Position numbers and translations under genes: made by a program
Notes under the pieces: model-generated
Seen by the model: the letters and a program-made list of their open reading frames with translations, nothing else
Told to the model about the DNA's origin: nothing
Database searches by the model: none
Assembly (NCBI RefSeq): GCF_000970045.1
Contig: NZ_CP009505.1
Span: 2,814,808-2,878,807, forward strand
Source: Methanosarcina sp. MTP4
GTDB taxonomy: Archaea; Halobacteriota; Methanosarcinia; Methanosarcinales; Methanosarcinaceae
DNA: 64,000 nucleotides
Direction: 5' to 3'
Part shown: positions 18,126 through 25,857 of the stretch, piece by piece
Position numbering within the stretch: position 1 is the stretch's first letter
Layout: the number at the start of each line of letters is the position of its first letter

Positions 18126-19538
18126 TCATTTTGGAGCTGAAGGTTTGAGCAATTTTTTCTCTAGCAGTTCATCCGCCTCTTCCTTGCTCAAAACCCCTCT
18201 CATCACCGCAACTTCCGCAACCGGAACCCTCCTTTCCAGCGCTTCCTTTGCAAGCTCCGCCGCCTTCAAATACCCGATTTTCGGGGTAAGGAACGTAACC
18301 AGAATCGGGTTAAGTTCAAGATAAGCCCTGCAGCTCTCCTCATTTGCCTTAATCCCCTCGACGCAGCGTTCCCGGAAGACCGGCAGGTAATTCGTTAGCA
18401 GGGCAATGGATTCCAGGATATTGCAGGTCATAACCGGGGTCATGACATTGAGCTCTAACTGCCCTGCCTGGGCTGCCATGGCAACGGTTGTGTCATTGCC
18501 CACGATCTGGAAGCCGATCATGTCCAGGCACTCTGCCATAACCGGGTTGTACTTCCCGGGCATGATGGAAGAGCCAGGTTGCACGGGAGGGAGCACTATT
18601 TCCGAAATCCCTGTGGTGGGCCCTGCGTTCAGGAGCCGGAGATCGTTTGCAATGCGGATGAGTTCGAGAGCGAGTTCCCGGAGAGCCCCGGAAAAGGCTG
18701 CAAGCTGGGACCGGCTCTGCAGGACTTCAAAACTGTCCAGGGCAGGGTGGAAGGGCAGGGAGCAAAGCCGGGTAAGCTTCGAAATTACCGTTTCCCTGTA
18801 CTGCGGATGCGTGTTTGCCCCGGTCCCGGTTGCCGTTCCTCCGATCGGGAGTTCCAGGAGGTCCCCCAACCTTTCTTCTATCCTGGAAGCTGCCCTTTCC
18901 AGGGAGGACGCGTAAGCCCCGAATTCGGCACCCAGGGAAACTGGAACCGCATCCATCAGATGGGTCCTGCCGGACTTGGGAATCTGCGAAAACTCAACGG
19001 CTTTTTCCCTGAAAGCGTCCGAAAGCCCGGAGAGGACGTCCAGGAGCCGCTCGCCTGCAAAAATAACCCCAATATGGGACGCCGTGGGGAAGGTATCGTT
19101 GGTGGACTGGGCTTTATTCACATAGTCGTTCGGGCTAAGGAAAGCGTAGTCTCCCCGCTTTCGCCCAAGCAGTTCCAGCGCCCTGTTTGCCAGCACCTCG
19201 TTTACGTTCATGTTAAAAGAAGTCCCTGCCCCCGCCTGGAAAACGTCCACAGGAAACTGGTCATGGTACCGGCCAGAAAGCCCCTCAAGCACCTCATCGG
19301 CTGCTTTCACGATGGCATTTCCCCGCTTTTCGTCAAGTACCCCGAGCTCCATGTTCGTAATAGCTGCCGCCTTTTTTACAAGGATATAGGCTCTCACAAA
19401 CTCCGGCCTTTCCCGCCTACCACTGACAGGGAAATTGTACATAGCTCGCCTTGTCTGGACGCCGTAATAGGCGTCTTCTGGAACATCCAATTCTCCAAGG
19501 GAATCACGCTCAATCCGGGTTTTCGGGTTAATAATCAT
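18126..19538 (-). CDS. fumC: class II fumarate hydratase (aspartase/fumarase superfamily)
   Basis: The protein has 470 residues, the usual length of class II fumarases. The superfamily signature GSSIMPGKYNP is near residue 320; SGRTHLMDAVPVSLG carries the catalytic-base His region, and AGTSFNMNVNEVLANRA and YVNKAQSTNDTFPTA match both fumarase and aspartase. Fumarase converts fumarate to malate; aspartase would give aspartate. Sequence motifs alone do not separate them with certainty, but location directly after sdhA-sdhB on the same strand (75-bp gap) favours fumarase. The start ATG at 19538 follows GAGGAGGT immediately, with the upstream GAGG at a more usual distance. It is the last gene of the sdhA-sdhB-fum cluster. 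Confidence 0.85.
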   Translation of the reverse strand: MIINPKTRIERDSLGELDVPEDAYYGVQTRRAMYNFPVSGRRERPEFVRAYILVKKAAAITNMELGVLDEKRGNAIVKAADEVLEGLSGRYHDQFPVDVFQAGAGTSFNMNVNEVLANRALELLGRKRGDYAFLSPNDYVNKAQSTNDTFPTASHIGVIFAGERLLDVLSGLSDAFREKAVEFSQIPKSGRTHLMDAVPVSLGAEFGAYASSLERAASRIEERLGDLLELPIGGTATGTGANTHPQYRETVISKLTRLCSLPFHPALDSFEVLQSRSQLAAFSGALRELALELIRIANDLRLLNAGPTTGISEIVLPPVQPGSSIMPGKYNPVMAECLDMIGFQIVGNDTTVAMAAQAGQLELNVMTPVMTCNILESIALLTNYLPVFRERCVEGIKANEESCRAYLELNPILVTFLTPKIGYLKAAELAKEALERRVPVAEVAVMRGVLSKEEADELLEKKLLKPSAPK

Positions 19539-19613
19539 ACCTCCTCTAATTATCAGTAAAAAGATTCTGAAATCTGTTTATTTTGGTTCCTTTCTTTATT
19601 CCGACTCCTTTTT

Positions 19614-20441
19614 TTATTCCGGCTCCTTTCCAAGCTTCTGGATTTCCCTTCTTGCCTTGCCGATCCCGAGGATCGGAGGAACGCCTTTAGGGCAGACAGC
19701 CTTGCAGTTTGCGTTGAACTCGCAGCCCCACCATCCTCTTTTGTCATTGGCAAGCATGAGCCTGGAATCGTCTTCCGCTTCGCGGGGATCGATATGGAAA
19801 CGGTAAAGTTTGGCAAGGGCTGCGGGTCCAAGGAACTCTTTTGTTTCTCCTTCTCCTTCTCCTTCTCCTTCTCCTTCTCCATCTCCTTGTTCATCACTTT
19901 CTGCTTTTCCCGAAATCGGGCAGGCACCTACACAGGAGGCGCAGAGCACGCAGTTCGTATACTTTTCAAGCTCTGAAACGGCTTCTTGATCCATTAAACG
20001 CTCTTTTTCGGGAGCTTCGGAAGTCGGCTTGAAGGTAGGTTCGACCGCCCGGTAGAACTCGAAGAATTTGTCCATGTCCACTATCAGGTCCTTTATTTTA
20101 GCCAGGTTCGGGAGAGGTTCTATGAGCACCTCCTCTTTTGGGTCCCAGTCAACAGTTTCTTCCATTCCCGGGAAGGGCCTGAGTTTTACCTGCCCTTTGC
20201 CTTTGAGGAGGGACTCCACCTGGGTCCGGCAGGCAAGCCTCGGCACCTTATTTATGAGCATCCCGCAGCTCCCGCAGACGGCACCCCGGCAGGAGTAGCG
20301 GAAAGCCAGGGAATCGTCAAGCTCCTCCTGGATTTTGAAGAGAGCGGAAAGCACGGTCATCCCGGGTTCGGGCTTGATTTCAAAGCTGTCGTATCGAGAC
20401 TCCCCGCTTTCCCCGTCATATCGAAACACTTTCAGCTTCAC
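19614..20441 (-). CDS. sdhB: succinate dehydrogenase/fumarate reductase iron-sulfur subunit
   Basis: The protein has 275 residues from a GTG at 20441 preceded by GGGGGGTG; this start puts the family's N-terminal strand (VKLKVFRYD) at the beginning, whereas the longer frame from 20483 adds a Cys-rich leader. [2Fe-2S] ligands are in CRGAVCGSC...C, [4Fe-4S] ligands in CVLCASCVGACP, and the [3Fe-4S]-type motif is CEFNANCKAVCPKG. An inserted (Gly-Glu)n run near residue 195, encoded by repeats of ccttct, is unusual. The protein lacks the C-terminal CCG domain of methanogen TfrB, so it is closer to Sdh/Frd-type subunits. It acts with the flavoprotein encoded upstream; no membrane-anchor subunit is visible. 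Confidence 0.88.
   Translation of the reverse strand: MKLKVFRYDGESGESRYDSFEIKPEPGMTVLSALFKIQEELDDSLAFRYSCRGAVCGSCGMLINKVPRLACRTQVESLLKGKGQVKLRPFPGMEETVDWDPKEEVLIEPLPNLAKIKDLIVDMDKFFEFYRAVEPTFKPTSEAPEKERLMDQEAVSELEKYTNCVLCASCVGACPISGKAESDEQGDGEGEGEGEGEGETKEFLGPAALAKLYRFHIDPREAEDDSRLMLANDKRGWWGCEFNANCKAVCPKGVPPILGIGKARREIQKLGKEPE
19842..19886. repeat. hexanucleotide microsatellite inside sdhB
   Basis: About seven tandem ccttct units encode Gly-Glu dipeptides on the minus strand. Changes in copy number keep the frame, so length variants are tolerated. Confidence 0.8.
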
Positions 20442-20472
20442 TTGTATGCACCCCCCATCAGCACAAACTCCA

Positions 20473-22386
20473 TCAGTACACACGCTCCTTTACCGGGAAT
20501 TTTCCGAGCCTGACAGTCAGGTACTCAAGTACCGGTTTTTCTTCTGGCTTTCCAACCTTCTCTTCAGGCTTTCTTTCGGGTTTCCCCTCAATCTTTCTTT
20601 CAGACCCCGGAACTTCCAGGCGGTAAATCGTATGGGCAAGGAATTTTTCATCGTCTCGGTCAGGGTAATCGGTCCGGGCATGGGAACCCCGGCTCTCTTT
20701 CCGGGCTATTGCGCCCCTTGCAACGGCTTCTGCAATGTCGAAGAGGCCCCTTAATTCCAGGGCGTAGATAAGAGCCTGGTTGAAAATAGCGGATTTGTTG
20801 TCAATGTAGACCTCAGGGTAGTGGCTTTTGAGTTCCAGGAGCTTTTCCAGCCCCTCTTCCATCTTCTTTCCTTCCCGGAATACCCCGAAAGACTCGAACA
20901 TAAGCTTCTTCAGCTCGTCCCGGAGCCCGGCCATTTTCACGCCCGAGTCCCTGGCAAGCAGGGCTTTTACTCTTCCATCTTCTTCGGAGAGCTTTTTCAG
21001 GACTGCTTTTTCATCCGCTTTTCTATCCTCTTTTCTATCCGCTTCTGCCGGCCGGGCTCCGAACCCTGAAGAGGAGAGGGATTTCCCTATCCCCTGTCCG
21101 GCAAGTTTTCCAAAGACCACGGTTTCGAGCAGGGAATTGCCTCCGAGCCGGTTTGCCCCGTGCACACTTACGCAGGAACATTCCCCTGCCGCGTAGAGCC
21201 CGGGAAGCTCAGTTGCAAGGTCGTTTCCGACAGCTATTCCCCCCATGGAATAGTGCTGCCCGGGCTGCACGGGAACGGGCTCTTCTATCGGATCCACGCC
21301 TGCAAAGTCCATGCTTATCAGGCGGATGCCGGGGAGACGTTCCAGGATCTTATCTTTTCCCAGGTGCCGGAGGTCGAGCAGGACGTACTTATTGTCAAAA
21401 CCCCTGCCTTCATCGATTTCCTGCTGGATCGAACGGGCTACGATGTCCCTTGGAGCCAGTTCCATGGACTTCGGGACATAAGCTTTCATGAAACGCTCAT
21501 TTTTATTGTTCAGGAGGTACCCGCCTTCCCCCCGAGCTCCTTCGGTGATCAGGATGTTGGTCCCGAAAAGGGTGGTCGGGTGGAACTGCACGAATTCCAT
21601 GTCCTTTAAGGGGACCCCTGCCCGCAGCGCCAGGGAAGCCCCGTCCCCGGTATTGATCAGGGCGTTTGTGGAACGGGTAAAGAGCCGCCCGAAACCTCCG
21701 GTTGCAAGGAGCAGAGCCCGGCAGGAAAAGCCGTGCAGGGTCCGGTCGGCAAGGTTTATAGAGGTACAGCCCACACAGCGTCCCCCGGTTTTTACCAGGG
21801 AAGTTACGAAAAATTCTTCGTAAAAAGTGATCCTTCCACTTCTTTTGCTTTTTACGCTGCTTTTACTTCCCTTACTTTCTTCACTTCCTTGACTTCCTTT
21901 ACTTTGCTCCAGTTCCCTGCCCATGAGCTGCTCATAAAGGGTATGCAGGATGTTGTGCCCGGTCCGGTCGGCTGCGTAGCAGGTCCTCGGGAACATCCCT
22001 CCTCCGAAGGGGCGCTGGGCAATCCTCCCGTCTTCCAGCCTCGAAAAAACGGTCCCGAAGTGTTCAAGCTCTATAACGGCACCGGGCGAATTTTTGCACA
22101 TTAGTTCCACGGCGTCCTGGTCGGCAAGGTAATCCGAACCCTTGACGGTGTCGAAGGCGTGGTCTTCCCAGGAATCCCCGGCCTGCGCGTTCCCGAGTGC
22201 TGCGTTCATCCCGCCCTGGGCTGCCACCGAGTGCGAGCGGAGCGGGTGTACCTTGGAAATTACCGCAGTATCAAGCCCGGAGTCCACCGTTTCGATGGCT
22301 GCCCGAAGCCCTGTCAGCCCGGCCCCGATAATGATGACGTCATGGGTGTGGATAGAATATCCTGATTCTGTTTCTTCTCCCCCCAA
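20473..22386 (-). CDS. sdhA: succinate dehydrogenase/fumarate reductase flavoprotein subunit
   Basis: The protein has 637 residues from a TTG at 22386, with GGGGG about 7 bases upstream. FAD-binding motifs are visible: IIGAGLTGLRAA near residue 20, SHSVAAQGGMNAALG (the region of the flavin-linking His), ATGGFGR, and HGANRLGGNSLLE near the end of the flavin domain. Active-site segments QFHPTTL and EGARGEGGYL match the succinate/fumarate oxidoreductase family. It oxidises succinate or reduces fumarate with SdhB. Two low-complexity insertions stand out: a Ser/Lys/Gly stretch near residue 165 and a Lys/Pro/Glu stretch near residue 610. The gene heads an sdhA-sdhB-fum unit preceded by a 14-bp tandem array. 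Confidence 0.9.
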   Translation of the reverse strand: MGGEETESGYSIHTHDVIIIGAGLTGLRAAIETVDSGLDTAVISKVHPLRSHSVAAQGGMNAALGNAQAGDSWEDHAFDTVKGSDYLADQDAVELMCKNSPGAVIELEHFGTVFSRLEDGRIAQRPFGGGMFPRTCYAADRTGHNILHTLYEQLMGRELEQSKGSQGSEESKGSKSSVKSKRSGRITFYEEFFVTSLVKTGGRCVGCTSINLADRTLHGFSCRALLLATGGFGRLFTRSTNALINTGDGASLALRAGVPLKDMEFVQFHPTTLFGTNILITEGARGEGGYLLNNKNERFMKAYVPKSMELAPRDIVARSIQQEIDEGRGFDNKYVLLDLRHLGKDKILERLPGIRLISMDFAGVDPIEEPVPVQPGQHYSMGGIAVGNDLATELPGLYAAGECSCVSVHGANRLGGNSLLETVVFGKLAGQGIGKSLSSSGFGARPAEADRKEDRKADEKAVLKKLSEEDGRVKALLARDSGVKMAGLRDELKKLMFESFGVFREGKKMEEGLEKLLELKSHYPEVYIDNKSAIFNQALIYALELRGLFDIAEAVARGAIARKESRGSHARTDYPDRDDEKFLAHTIYRLEVPGSERKIEGKPERKPEEKVGKPEEKPVLEYLTVRLGKFPVKERVY

Positions 22387-22438
22387 ATAATTCCCCCGAA
22401 GTTTGATTTCTCGGATTTAATTTTTTGGATTTGATTCC

Positions 22439-22508
22439 GGATTTGATTTATCGGATTTGATTTATCGGATTTGATTTATCGGATTTGATTTATCGGATTT
22501 GATTTATC
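22439..22508. repeat. 14-bp tandem repeat, 5 perfect copies
   Basis: ggatttgatttatc is repeated exactly five times, with degenerate flanking copies on both sides. It lies between the ThDP-enzyme gene and sdhA, in the leader or promoter region of sdhA. Confidence 0.9.
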
Positions 22509-22582
22509 AGATTTAATTTAGGATTTGGCTTTGGGATTATCATTATCAGTAAAAAGGTGCAGGGTGATCAGAGCCTGCACAA

Positions 22583-24217
22583 TCAAAGTTCACAGACCAG
22601 GTTCCCGAGTTCTATCGAAAAGGTCTCGTAGTTTACGGAATAATCGATAGGGCACTCGACGACCACCACTTTGTTGAGGGAAAAGGCTTTTTCCAGGACT
22701 TCGGCAAGGTCGTCTCCTTCTTCCACCCAGAAACCTGTAGCCCCGAAACTTTCGGCAAAGCGGGCAAAGTCAGGGTTCCCGTAGTCAAGGGCGAAGTCCT
22801 CAAAATGCATTTTCTTCTGCTTCCACTTGATGAAGCCAAAGGCGTTGTCGTTCAGGACGAGGACGACGACCGGGATCTTATAGCGGATTGCGGTTTCGAG
22901 TTCCTGGCAGTTCATCATGAAGCCCCCGTCCCCGCAGATGGCAAGCACCCGCTTATCAGGGTTGACCATTTTTGCGGCAATCCCTGCAGGGAGCCCGGCT
23001 CCCATAGTCGCCAGGGCGTTGTCCAGGAGGACAGTATTCGGGGCATAGGTCTTGTAGAGGCGGGAGAACCAGAGCTTGTATATCCCGTTGTCCAGGCTGA
23101 TGATGTCTTTCCTGCCGAGCACTTCCCGGACGCTTTGGACAACCGAATGGGGAAGGGGAGGATAACTTTTCCCTTCATATGCATTGATTTTCCCCTCGAT
23201 GAAAGCCCTTGTTGCTGCAAAGATGGGAAACTCCCGTTTCCCGGGGATCCTTGCAGCTATTTCCCGGATCGAGGCTGCAATGTCCCCTATGACTTCCAGG
23301 TCGGGGTTAAAGTACCTGTCAGGCAAGGACTCAACAAAATCAATGTTGATGATTTTTTTGTCCAGCATCCTGTTCCAGAGGTAAGGGGGATATTCAACTA
23401 TGTCGTATCCTACGGTTATGATCAGGTCTGCCTCGTCAATCCCGCAGTTTACGTAGTCGTGGGCATGGATCCCCGTGGCAAAGAGGCTGCAGGGGCAGTC
23501 GTCAGGGACAACGCCTTTTCCCATCTGGGTATGCACCAGGTAGATCCCGGTCTTCCTGGCAAAGTCCTCAAGCTCGTCGGTAATGGATGTTCTGTTTGCC
23601 CCGGAAGAGACGATGATCAGGGGTTTTTTTGCCTCACAGATCATGGTTGCAGCCTTTTCAATGGCAGCAGGTTCAGGGTACGGGATTTCGATTTTAGCCT
23701 TCCTCTGGACCACGGCATCGGTCTCCTTCTCTGCCACGTCCTCGGGAAGCTCTATATGGACCGCCCCGGGCCGCTCGGCTTCCGCGTGCTTGAAAGCGTT
23801 CCTGATCACGGTGGGGATAGTCCCGGGATCGGCTATGGAAACCGCCTTTTTGCAGAGCGGCTCCATCATCCGGACCACGTCCACAAGCTGGAAGCGGGCC
23901 TGCCAGTTATCGAAAAGGGCTTTTTGCCCCGAAATCGAGATGAAAGGAGCACCGATAAGCTGTGCCTGGGCAACGCCTGTTACGAGGTTGGTTGCTCCCG
24001 GCCCGAGCGTTGAAAAACAGACCCCCGCCTTCCCGGTCAGCCGCCCGTAAGCCGCAGCCATGAAAGCCGCTGCCTGTTCGTGCCTTGTTATGATAATTTT
24101 GATCTTCGATTTCCTGAGCGATTCAAGGAAGTCCAGGTTTTCCTCCCCCGGAAGCCCGAAAATGTACTCGACCCCTTCTTCTTCAAGCTGGGCCACGAAA
24201 AGATCTGAAGCTTTCAT
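22583..24217 (-). CDS. ThDP-dependent enzyme, acetolactate-synthase-like; candidate 2-oxoglutarate decarboxylase
   Basis: The protein has 544 residues with the three-domain layout of the acetolactate synthase/pyruvate oxidase family. Glu47 in TRHEQAAAF is the residue that activates ThDP. STLGPGATNLVTG is typical, and the ThDP/Mg motif GDGGFMMNCQELETA...LNDNAFG lies at about 427-456. By annotation habit it would be called catabolic acetolactate synthase. However, it lies next to a succinate-semialdehyde dehydrogenase of the Sad type and upstream of sdhAB-fum. In cyanobacteria (shown in Synechococcus sp. PCC 7002) an acetolactate-synthase-like protein paired with such a dehydrogenase is a 2-oxoglutarate decarboxylase. 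The sequence alone does not decide between the two activities. Confidence 0.85.
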   Translation of the reverse strand: MKASDLFVAQLEEEGVEYIFGLPGEENLDFLESLRKSKIKIIITRHEQAAAFMAAAYGRLTGKAGVCFSTLGPGATNLVTGVAQAQLIGAPFISISGQKALFDNWQARFQLVDVVRMMEPLCKKAVSIADPGTIPTVIRNAFKHAEAERPGAVHIELPEDVAEKETDAVVQRKAKIEIPYPEPAAIEKAATMICEAKKPLIIVSSGANRTSITDELEDFARKTGIYLVHTQMGKGVVPDDCPCSLFATGIHAHDYVNCGIDEADLIITVGYDIVEYPPYLWNRMLDKKIINIDFVESLPDRYFNPDLEVIGDIAASIREIAARIPGKREFPIFAATRAFIEGKINAYEGKSYPPLPHSVVQSVREVLGRKDIISLDNGIYKLWFSRLYKTYAPNTVLLDNALATMGAGLPAGIAAKMVNPDKRVLAICGDGGFMMNCQELETAIRYKIPVVVLVLNDNAFGFIKWKQKKMHFEDFALDYGNPDFARFAESFGATGFWVEEGDDLAEVLEKAFSLNKVVVVECPIDYSVNYETFSIELGNLVCEL

Positions 24218-24287
24218 ATAAAAATCTCCTGAATGTTTTCATTATTATAGTCTATACCCCAAATATCTTAACCAATCTCAGGTGAAT

Positions 24288-24374
24288 GTTTAACCACCGA
24301 AAGCACGGAAAACACGGAATAAAGAAGACAGGGTCACAATCCTTCCGTGCTTTCCGTGTCTTCCGTGGTTTTAA
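24288..24374. repeat. dispersed inverted-repeat element, copy 2
   Basis: gtttaaccaccgaaagcacggaaaacacgg forms the left side and ccttccgtgctttccgtgtcttccgtggtt the right; the arms can pair as an extended hairpin. It is the reverse-oriented relative of 14461-14538 and lies between the dehydrogenase gene and the ThDP-enzyme gene, so it would be transcribed if the two form an operon. Confidence 0.75.
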
Positions 24375-24492
24375 TGTAATTGTCCGTGGTTGTAATGCGG
24401 CTGTAAATGCTTACTTTCCGGACTATAATTGAGCACAAAGGTCCTCCACCTGTTGGCAGCTCAGTTCCTTATTTGTTGACCTCGATGGTCCC

Positions 24493-25857
24493 TTATTTGT
24501 TGACCACCACGGTCTTGATGTTCACGAACTCCTTGAGCCCGTAGTGGGAAAGTTCCCTTCCTACCCCGGACTTCTTGATCCCGCCGAAGGGCAGCCTGGG
24601 ATCGGACTTGACCATCCCGTTGACCACGACGAAGCCGGACTTTATGCGCTTTGCAAGCCGCTCTGCCCGTTCCGGGTCCCCTGACCAGATAGTGCCCCCC
24701 AGCCCGAACTCGGTGGAGTTTGCGACTTCCACGGCTTCGTTCTCGTCTTTGACCATGATAACCGGCGCAATCGGCCCGAAGATTTCCAGGCTGCAGACCT
24801 TCATGTCGGTGCTGGCAGCCGGGACAAGTGCAGGCCTGAAGAAAAAGCCCTTCTGGTGCTCTTGCCCATGGATTTTTGGCCTGGAACCTTTCTTTTCCGC
24901 GTCTTTCAGGACCTTTTCAAGCTCCCCCACAAATACCTTTTTCGCGACAGGCCCGATGTCGGTCTCCGGGTCCATGGGGTCCCCGACCTTGAGCTGCTGC
25001 ATATATTCGTCAAACTTCTCGGAAAACTCCACGACCACGTCTTCTATAATGATAAAGCGCTTTGCAGCAATACAGCTTTGCCCGGCATTGATAAAGCGAG
25101 CTTTTACCGCCATCTGCGCAGCCGCGTCCACGTCCGCGTCCTCGAGCACGATGAAGGGGTCGGACCCCCCTAGTTCCAGCACAAGCGGCTTGATCTTCTT
25201 TCCCGCAAGCTCTCCTACCGCAGACCCGGCTGCAACGCTTCCGGTCAGCGAGACCCCGTCCACAAGCCCGCAGTCAATCATCTTCATCGCAGTCTTCGAG
25301 TCGATCAGCAGCGTCTTAAACACGTTATCAGGCAGTCCCGCCTCCAGAAAGACCTTCTGGATCTCCAGTGCCGACCCCGGCACGTTCGAAGCATGCTTGA
25401 GCAAACAGACGTTTCCCGCAGCCAGCGCCGGCACCACAAAGCGAAACACCTGCCAGAACGGGAAGTTCCAGGGCATGATCCCGAAAATGACTCCAAGCGG
25501 CTCGAAGCTGATGTAGCTCTTCTCAGCCTCCGTTTCCACAACCTCGTCCTTCAAAAAGCCAGCCGCGTTCTCCGCATAATACTCGCAGGCCCAGGCACAT
25601 TTCTCAATCTCGGACAGGGACTCCCGGATAGGCTTTCCCATCTCCTTTGTTATGACCTCGGCATAAACCCGTTTGTTTTGCCTGAGCACGCCTGCAGCCC
25701 GGGCGATGTACCTGACCCTCTCCTCCACCGAAAGGGTACTCCAGCCCTCAAAAGCAGCCCTTGACAGTTCTATTTGCTGCTGGCAGTCTTTGAAAGAAAG
25801 CGGGTCGTAGGTCCAGTTGAGTTCTTCAGTATAAGGATTAACGGATTTGATTTTCAG
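24493..25857 (-). CDS. succinate-semialdehyde dehydrogenase (Sad/YneI-like aldehyde dehydrogenase), non-standard start
   Basis: The protein has 454 residues from a CTG at 25857, close to the usual 460 for this family. Homology to aldehyde dehydrogenases begins at once (KIKSVNPYTEEL...FEGWSTLSVEERVRYI), yet none of the first 43 codons is ATG, GTG or TTG; the first is GTG at 25728. GGGGGG lies 7 bases before the CTG. MPWNFPFWQV, LVLELGGSDPFIV (catalytic Glu near 230) and NAGQSCIAAKRF (catalytic Cys near 263) are intact, and LPFGGIKKSGVGRELSHYGL closes the protein. The match is to the Sad/YneI group, which oxidises succinate semialdehyde to succinate. It is upstream of the ThDP-enzyme gene on the same strand. 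Confidence 0.88.
   Translation of the reverse strand: MKIKSVNPYTEELNWTYDPLSFKDCQQQIELSRAAFEGWSTLSVEERVRYIARAAGVLRQNKRVYAEVITKEMGKPIRESLSEIEKCAWACEYYAENAAGFLKDEVVETEAEKSYISFEPLGVIFGIMPWNFPFWQVFRFVVPALAAGNVCLLKHASNVPGSALEIQKVFLEAGLPDNVFKTLLIDSKTAMKMIDCGLVDGVSLTGSVAAGSAVGELAGKKIKPLVLELGGSDPFIVLEDADVDAAAQMAVKARFINAGQSCIAAKRFIIIEDVVVEFSEKFDEYMQQLKVGDPMDPETDIGPVAKKVFVGELEKVLKDAEKKGSRPKIHGQEHQKGFFFRPALVPAASTDMKVCSLEIFGPIAPVIMVKDENEAVEVANSTEFGLGGTIWSGDPERAERLAKRIKSGFVVVNGMVKSDPRLPFGGIKKSGVGRELSHYGLKEFVNIKTVVVNK

Follow-up and report, generated by a model that had tools for sequence, protein, structure and literature searches.

The 64,000-nucleotide stretch of DNA analyzed here (the window) lies in the single-contig, 4.21-Mb genome of Methanosarcina sp. 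MTP4 (contig NZ_CP009505.1, positions 2,814,808 to 2,878,807) and carries five minus-strand genes, which we read, with a probability of about 0.45, as two independent enzyme modules lying side by side and sharing succinate, the second of which probably reduces fumarate. In the first module, a thiamine diphosphate (ThDP) enzyme would decarboxylate 2-oxoglutarate from the oxidative half-cycle to succinate semialdehyde, which a succinate-semialdehyde dehydrogenase (SSADH) would oxidize to succinate with NADP+, the net products being succinate, CO2, and NADPH. In the second, an aspartase-like lyase would catalyze the reversible conversion of aspartate to fumarate plus ammonia, and SdhAB, as a soluble enzyme without an anchor, would link fumarate to succinate; it would most likely work as a fumarate reductase, for which thiols, ferredoxin, F420, or methanophenazine are candidate electron sources. 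For both modules, the substrates, cofactor preference, direction, and electron partner are predicted. A preliminary description had proposed the five genes as a candidate oxidative bypass from 2-oxoglutarate to malate, and all five open frames were confirmed where it had placed them:

24493..25857, minus strand: SSADH, 454 amino acids, CTG start; Pfam Aldedh
22583..24217, minus strand: ThDP-dependent 2-oxo acid decarboxylase, probably a 2-oxoglutarate decarboxylase, 544 amino acids; NCBIfam PRK08322, 802 bits
20473..22386, minus strand: SdhA-type flavoprotein, 637 amino acids; TIGR01812, 727 bits, over the cut-off
19614..20483, minus strand: SdhB-type iron-sulfur protein, 289 amino acids; dhsB TIGR00384, 197 bits, over the cut-off
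18126..19538, minus strand: aspartase/fumarase-superfamily lyase with an aspartase-type motif (GAGTS and QSTND), 470 amino acids; match to 1j3u

Pfam/NCBIfam scans placed the Aldedh domain in SSADH, TPP_enzyme N, M, and C domains in the ThDP enzyme, FAD_binding_2 and Succ_DH_flav_C in SdhA, Fer2_3 and Fer4_8 in SdhB, and Lyase_1 and FumaraseC_C in the lyase. From SSADH to the lyase, the intergenic gaps are 275, 196, −11, and 75 bp, sdhA and sdhB overlapping by 11 bp.

The assignment of the first gene to the cyanobacterial or Sad type of SSADH, predicted from structure matches and active-site residues, holds. Its best solved-structure matches are the succinate-semialdehyde dehydrogenases 4it9 and 3vz1-3 (E 2.6e-126), which rank ahead of Sad and which we take to be from Synechococcus PCC 7002, making the cyanobacterial SSADH its nearest relative among solved structures. 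In cyanobacterial SSADH, mutagenesis or structural work has singled out C262, E228, R139, W135, S419, K154, and S157 (PMC7510979, which also gives Synechococcus PCC 7002 as the source of 3VZ3). All seven residues are identical in the window SSADH, namely, C262 and E228 for catalysis, R139, W135, and S419 for the substrate, and K154 and S157 for the cofactor, the last two of which suggest a preference for NADP+. Elsewhere in Methanosarcina, six genomes have, next to the ThDP gene, an SSADH of full length in which Y, H, or F takes the place of Cys262 (L237, L247, L250, L251, L252, and L253); these copies are under purifying selection, with a ratio of nonsynonymous to synonymous substitution rates (dN/dS) of 0.10 to 0.14, and it is possible that they represent a selected pseudoenzyme. 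More Cys-less copies lie away from the ThDP gene (L267, L269, L270, and L271).

The second gene encodes a probable 2-oxoglutarate decarboxylase, judging from its active site. In a tree of 68 rows, among them few AlsS and no cyanobacterial sequences, it fell outside both the AlsS and the IlvB lines, with a support of 92/69 for the branch next to AlsS. The active site was compared with that of MaKGD, a 2-oxoglutarate decarboxylase with docked and mutated active-site residues (PMC10418658), the residues being mapped through published numbers and surrounding sequence motifs and not through the MaKGD sequence itself. The ThDP catalytic Glu and the GDG Asp are kept (E47, D430, and D457 for MaKGD E50, D435, and D462), as are MaKGD A408 and M410 and both lysines proposed to bind 2-oxoglutarate (K381 and K466 for MaKGD K386 and K471), whose equivalents occur in neither the AlsS nor the IlvB rows. 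The two enzyme families, the catalytic Glu, the ThDP motif, and the substrate lysines are common to this pair and to the cyanobacterial bypass through 2-oxoglutarate decarboxylase and SSADH (Zhang and Bryant 2011). Here the preliminary description, which had compared the pair to that system, is borne out by the kept lysines and the SSADH structure matches.

The association of the two enzymes reaches well beyond this genus. The clade to which the window ThDP enzyme belongs takes in Nitrospirota, Syntrophaceae, Planctomycetota, and DPANN (Woesearchaeota and Nanoarchaeota), and an SSADH that is 54 to 60% identical adjoins almost all of its non-Methanosarcina ThDP genes; the nesting of the Methanosarcina enzyme among bacteria suggests transfer. 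Protein distance matrices of ThDP enzyme and SSADH correlate with an r of 0.87 over 30 pairs (0/2000 permutations), a value that owes something to shared ancestry, and with 0.66 within 11 window-clade representatives (0/2000 permutations). On a Dinoroseobacter plasmid (L165 1643-4626), a distant ThDP relative lies directly 3' of gdhA, the gene for glutamate dehydrogenase, which makes 2-oxoglutarate.

For the lyase, aspartase is the better guess at an activity, going by its motifs. QSTND and GAGTS occur in 8/8 Methanosarcina-type copies and in 4/4 AspA references, and QSSND and GSGT occur in 5/5 FumC references, these labels being database annotations except for the two sequences from E. coli K-12. 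Among solved structures, the window lyase matches an aspartase best (1j3u, AspA/AspB) and shares with it the GAGTS, QSTND, and GSSxMPGK motifs. It is ~46% identical to AspA of E. coli and ~44% identical to FumC, and a 99/96 split in the tree has it on the same side as AspA, without fixing its exact place relative to AspA. Scores lie below the cut-off for both the aspA equivalog TIGR00839 (529 bits; cut-off, 681) and fumC_II (497 bits; cut-off, 665). The PRK12273 cut-off is passed, but QSSND lyases pass it too, and the NCBIfam name was therefore rejected as proof of an aspartase. Of the identities first proposed, SSADH, acetolactate-synthase-like ThDP enzyme, SdhA, and SdhB stood, whereas a class II fumarase, and with it a fumarase as the last step, is doubtful given QSTND instead of QSSND and the low fumC_II score. 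Another locus of the genome encodes a class I fumarase. In one relative (G001), the lyase C-terminus is present a second time in partial form (L031 3439-3891), which suggests local duplication and recombination.

SdhA, the only one in the genome at E<=1e-60, has the catalytic and FAD motifs, including the FAD-binding His motif HSVAAQGG, and SdhB has the cysteine motifs for 2Fe-2S, 4Fe-4S, and 3Fe-4S clusters and no CCG domain; both family assignments, as predicted from these motifs and the profile scores, hold. Several low-complexity insertions in SdhAB vary between close relatives. The methanogen thiol:fumarate reductase TfrAB is likewise an SdhA/SdhB-like pair without an anchor, but the window SdhB, at 289 amino acids, has no CCG or second cysteine-rich domain and reaches 123 bits against a TfrB cut-off of 385, and a TfrAB identity was rejected on the lack of the CCG domain. 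The Sdh_cyt membrane anchor (PF01127) had no match in the whole genome, other anchor types not having been searched for. The potential of the fumarate/succinate couple is about +30 mV, compared with about −165 mV for methanophenazine and about −140 mV for CoM-S-S-CoB, and oxidation of succinate by the known Methanosarcina carriers would cost roughly 30 to 40 kJ/mol. Since it would be uphill with methanophenazine or the heterodisulfide as acceptor, fumarate reduction is the likelier direction, and the oxidative direction proposed earlier loses ground on these established potentials and on the missing anchor match.

The five-gene order is common to about nine Methanosarcina-type genomes (G000-G003, of which G000 is the genome analyzed here, G047, G106, KYL-1, STD2_179, and G091), with protein identities of 71 to 92%. 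All five genes have a dN/dS of 0.04 to 0.15 (0.10 to 0.15 in comparison with their own genus), and an order kept in this many genomes at a dN/dS of about 0.1 is therefore no chance neighborhood. Nevertheless, the two halves are distributed independently. Over 80 relatives, with related genomes counted as independent, SdhA and the lyase co-occur (30 with both, 4 and 1 with one alone; p 1.5e-16), whereas the ThDP enzyme and SdhA show no association (14 with both; p 0.24), and we therefore recognize two modules and not one. A single ancestral pathway unit of five genes, as the preliminary description implied, was rejected on this co-occurrence, and the repeated losses of sdhAB described below also speak against it.

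Other Methanosarcinaceae have a stand-alone lyase-SdhA-SdhB operon, in that order, in which the same three gene families are linked; it differs in that its lyase has QSSND, it does not lie beside an SSADH-ThDP pair, and its SdhA is of a lineage other than that of Methanosarcina, whose nearest row is a sequence of the family that we call f2.

Within the genus Methanosarcina, a window-type ThDP gene is present in 26 of the 31 genomes (two of these with stops), and its partners decay around it. Among the full sets, there is an in-frame TAG in sdhA (KYL-1) or in SSADH (STD2_179), and in G091 the SSADH lies 1.9 kb off. Among the partial sets, the lyase occurs without sdhAB in two genomes (G087 and G023), remnants are found in three (G089, G090, and G098), and others have the SSADH-ThDP pair only. 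While sdhAB has been lost repeatedly, the ThDP gene stays; it also outlives SSADH, as seen from the six genomes with a Cys262-less SSADH and from G089, in which SSADH is broken and has no close copy elsewhere. In-frame TAG codons in otherwise intact Methanosarcinaceae genes (L190 6634-7989, L051 sdhA codon 471, and L053 SSADH codon 248) are possibly pyrrolysine codons.

Methanosarcinales have been described as making 2-oxoglutarate by an oxidative half-cycle and stopping there (PMC3146512). In this genome, citrate synthase is present and a 2-oxoglutarate dehydrogenase E1 was not found (2-oxoglutarate:ferredoxin oxidoreductase was not searched for), in line with the missing oxidative steps that the preliminary description had assumed. 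A conserved and selected gene set that could take 2-oxoglutarate to succinate, beside enzymes of succinate, fumarate, and aspartate, makes that view directly testable, and the repeated sdhAB loss within one genus provides natural experiments. That some methanogens have relatives of the decarboxylase/SSADH pair was already pointed out with the work of Zhang and Bryant 2011, according to PMC12214013. What is new here is the linkage of the pair to SdhAB and an aspartase-like lyase, together with the decay series, of which a limited search of open papers found no description.

Several observations weigh against two modules of which the second reduces fumarate: (i) SdhA has the SDH-type Gln of HSVAAQGG where FrdA has Glu and is nearer to E. 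coli SdhA than to FrdA, which leans toward succinate oxidation; (ii) two f2 operons (L191 1028-7666 and L201 1258-8222) combine an aldehyde dehydrogenase and a class III aminotransferase with the lyase, SdhA, and SdhB, and L201 has an SdhC as well, a content that would suit an oxidative order; (iii) some Methanosarcina with an intact ThDP gene have a broken or Cys-less SSADH, and the pair is therefore not inseparable; and (iv) MaKGD V382, A384, H385, Y465, and L467 are replaced by N377, I379, Y380, F460, and F462 in the window enzyme, although these contacts rest on docking and so are not strictly defining (PMC10418658).

The first two of these points favor an oxidative bypass, in which 2-oxoglutarate would pass through succinate semialdehyde, succinate, and fumarate to malate (with either the lyase or the genome's class I fumarase as the last enzyme) or to aspartate, and which we consider unlikely. 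All the enzyme families that it requires are encoded in a genome with citrate synthase and no detected 2-oxoglutarate dehydrogenase E1, and the five-gene order is kept under purifying selection; however, its central step is uphill against the Methanosarcina carriers and no Sdh_cyt anchor was found in the genome, and the independent distribution of the ThDP and Sdh genes, with several sdhAB losses in which the ThDP gene was retained, also speaks against it. Its path being thermodynamically disfavored, the oxidative reading survives on the SDH-type Gln and on the conserved linkage. That a methanogen would close the oxidative cycle with no 2-oxoglutarate dehydrogenase, going from 2-oxoglutarate via succinate semialdehyde and succinate to fumarate and aspartate or malate, seems improbable.

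Also quite unlikely is a different 2-oxo acid substrate for the ThDP enzyme, such as 2-oxoadipate, 2-oxosuberate, or a branched acid, with the SSADH taking the corresponding semialdehyde. The pocket does depart from that of MaKGD, save for the two lysines and Ala408/Met410, with DNGIYK and F..F in the window clade, whereas the MaKGD-like VGAHK/YGL pattern is found in a sister clade of other Methanosarcinaceae, presumably of the Methanolobus type (the genus name is a guess). In a proteobacterial sister clade, moreover, a similar ThDP gene is often followed by an aldehyde dehydrogenase of a different family, which calls for caution on the substrate; yet the SSADH residues that hold the carboxylate of succinate semialdehyde are all retained. 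A genuine acetolactate synthase lying here by chance, as the name of PRK08322 ("acetolactate synthase large subunit"), the best NCBIfam family, would have it, is scarcely credible and was rejected on the tree, on the IlvB-type enzyme elsewhere in the genome (at 839998; a third ThDP enzyme lies at 2037076), and on the SSADH pairing conserved across phyla.

Two noncoding features accompany the two-module locus:

25894..25910, minus strand: TATA-like element CCTAAATTATAATACC upstream of SSADH, conserved in a six-genome alignment; putative promoter
24218..24492, no strand assigned: gap between SSADH and the ThDP gene, with a palindromic repeat and, just before the ThDP gene, a conserved stretch (four-genome alignment); possible second promoter

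A scan for sigma-70-type promoters, which is unsuited to archaea, gave no excess. The CTG start codon of SSADH at 25857 is preceded by a GGGGGGA element, and four close relatives have GTG at the same place. The palindromic repeat within 24218-24492 (ACCACGGAAGACACGGAAAGCACGGAA...) has a similar sequence upstream of sdhA in G003.

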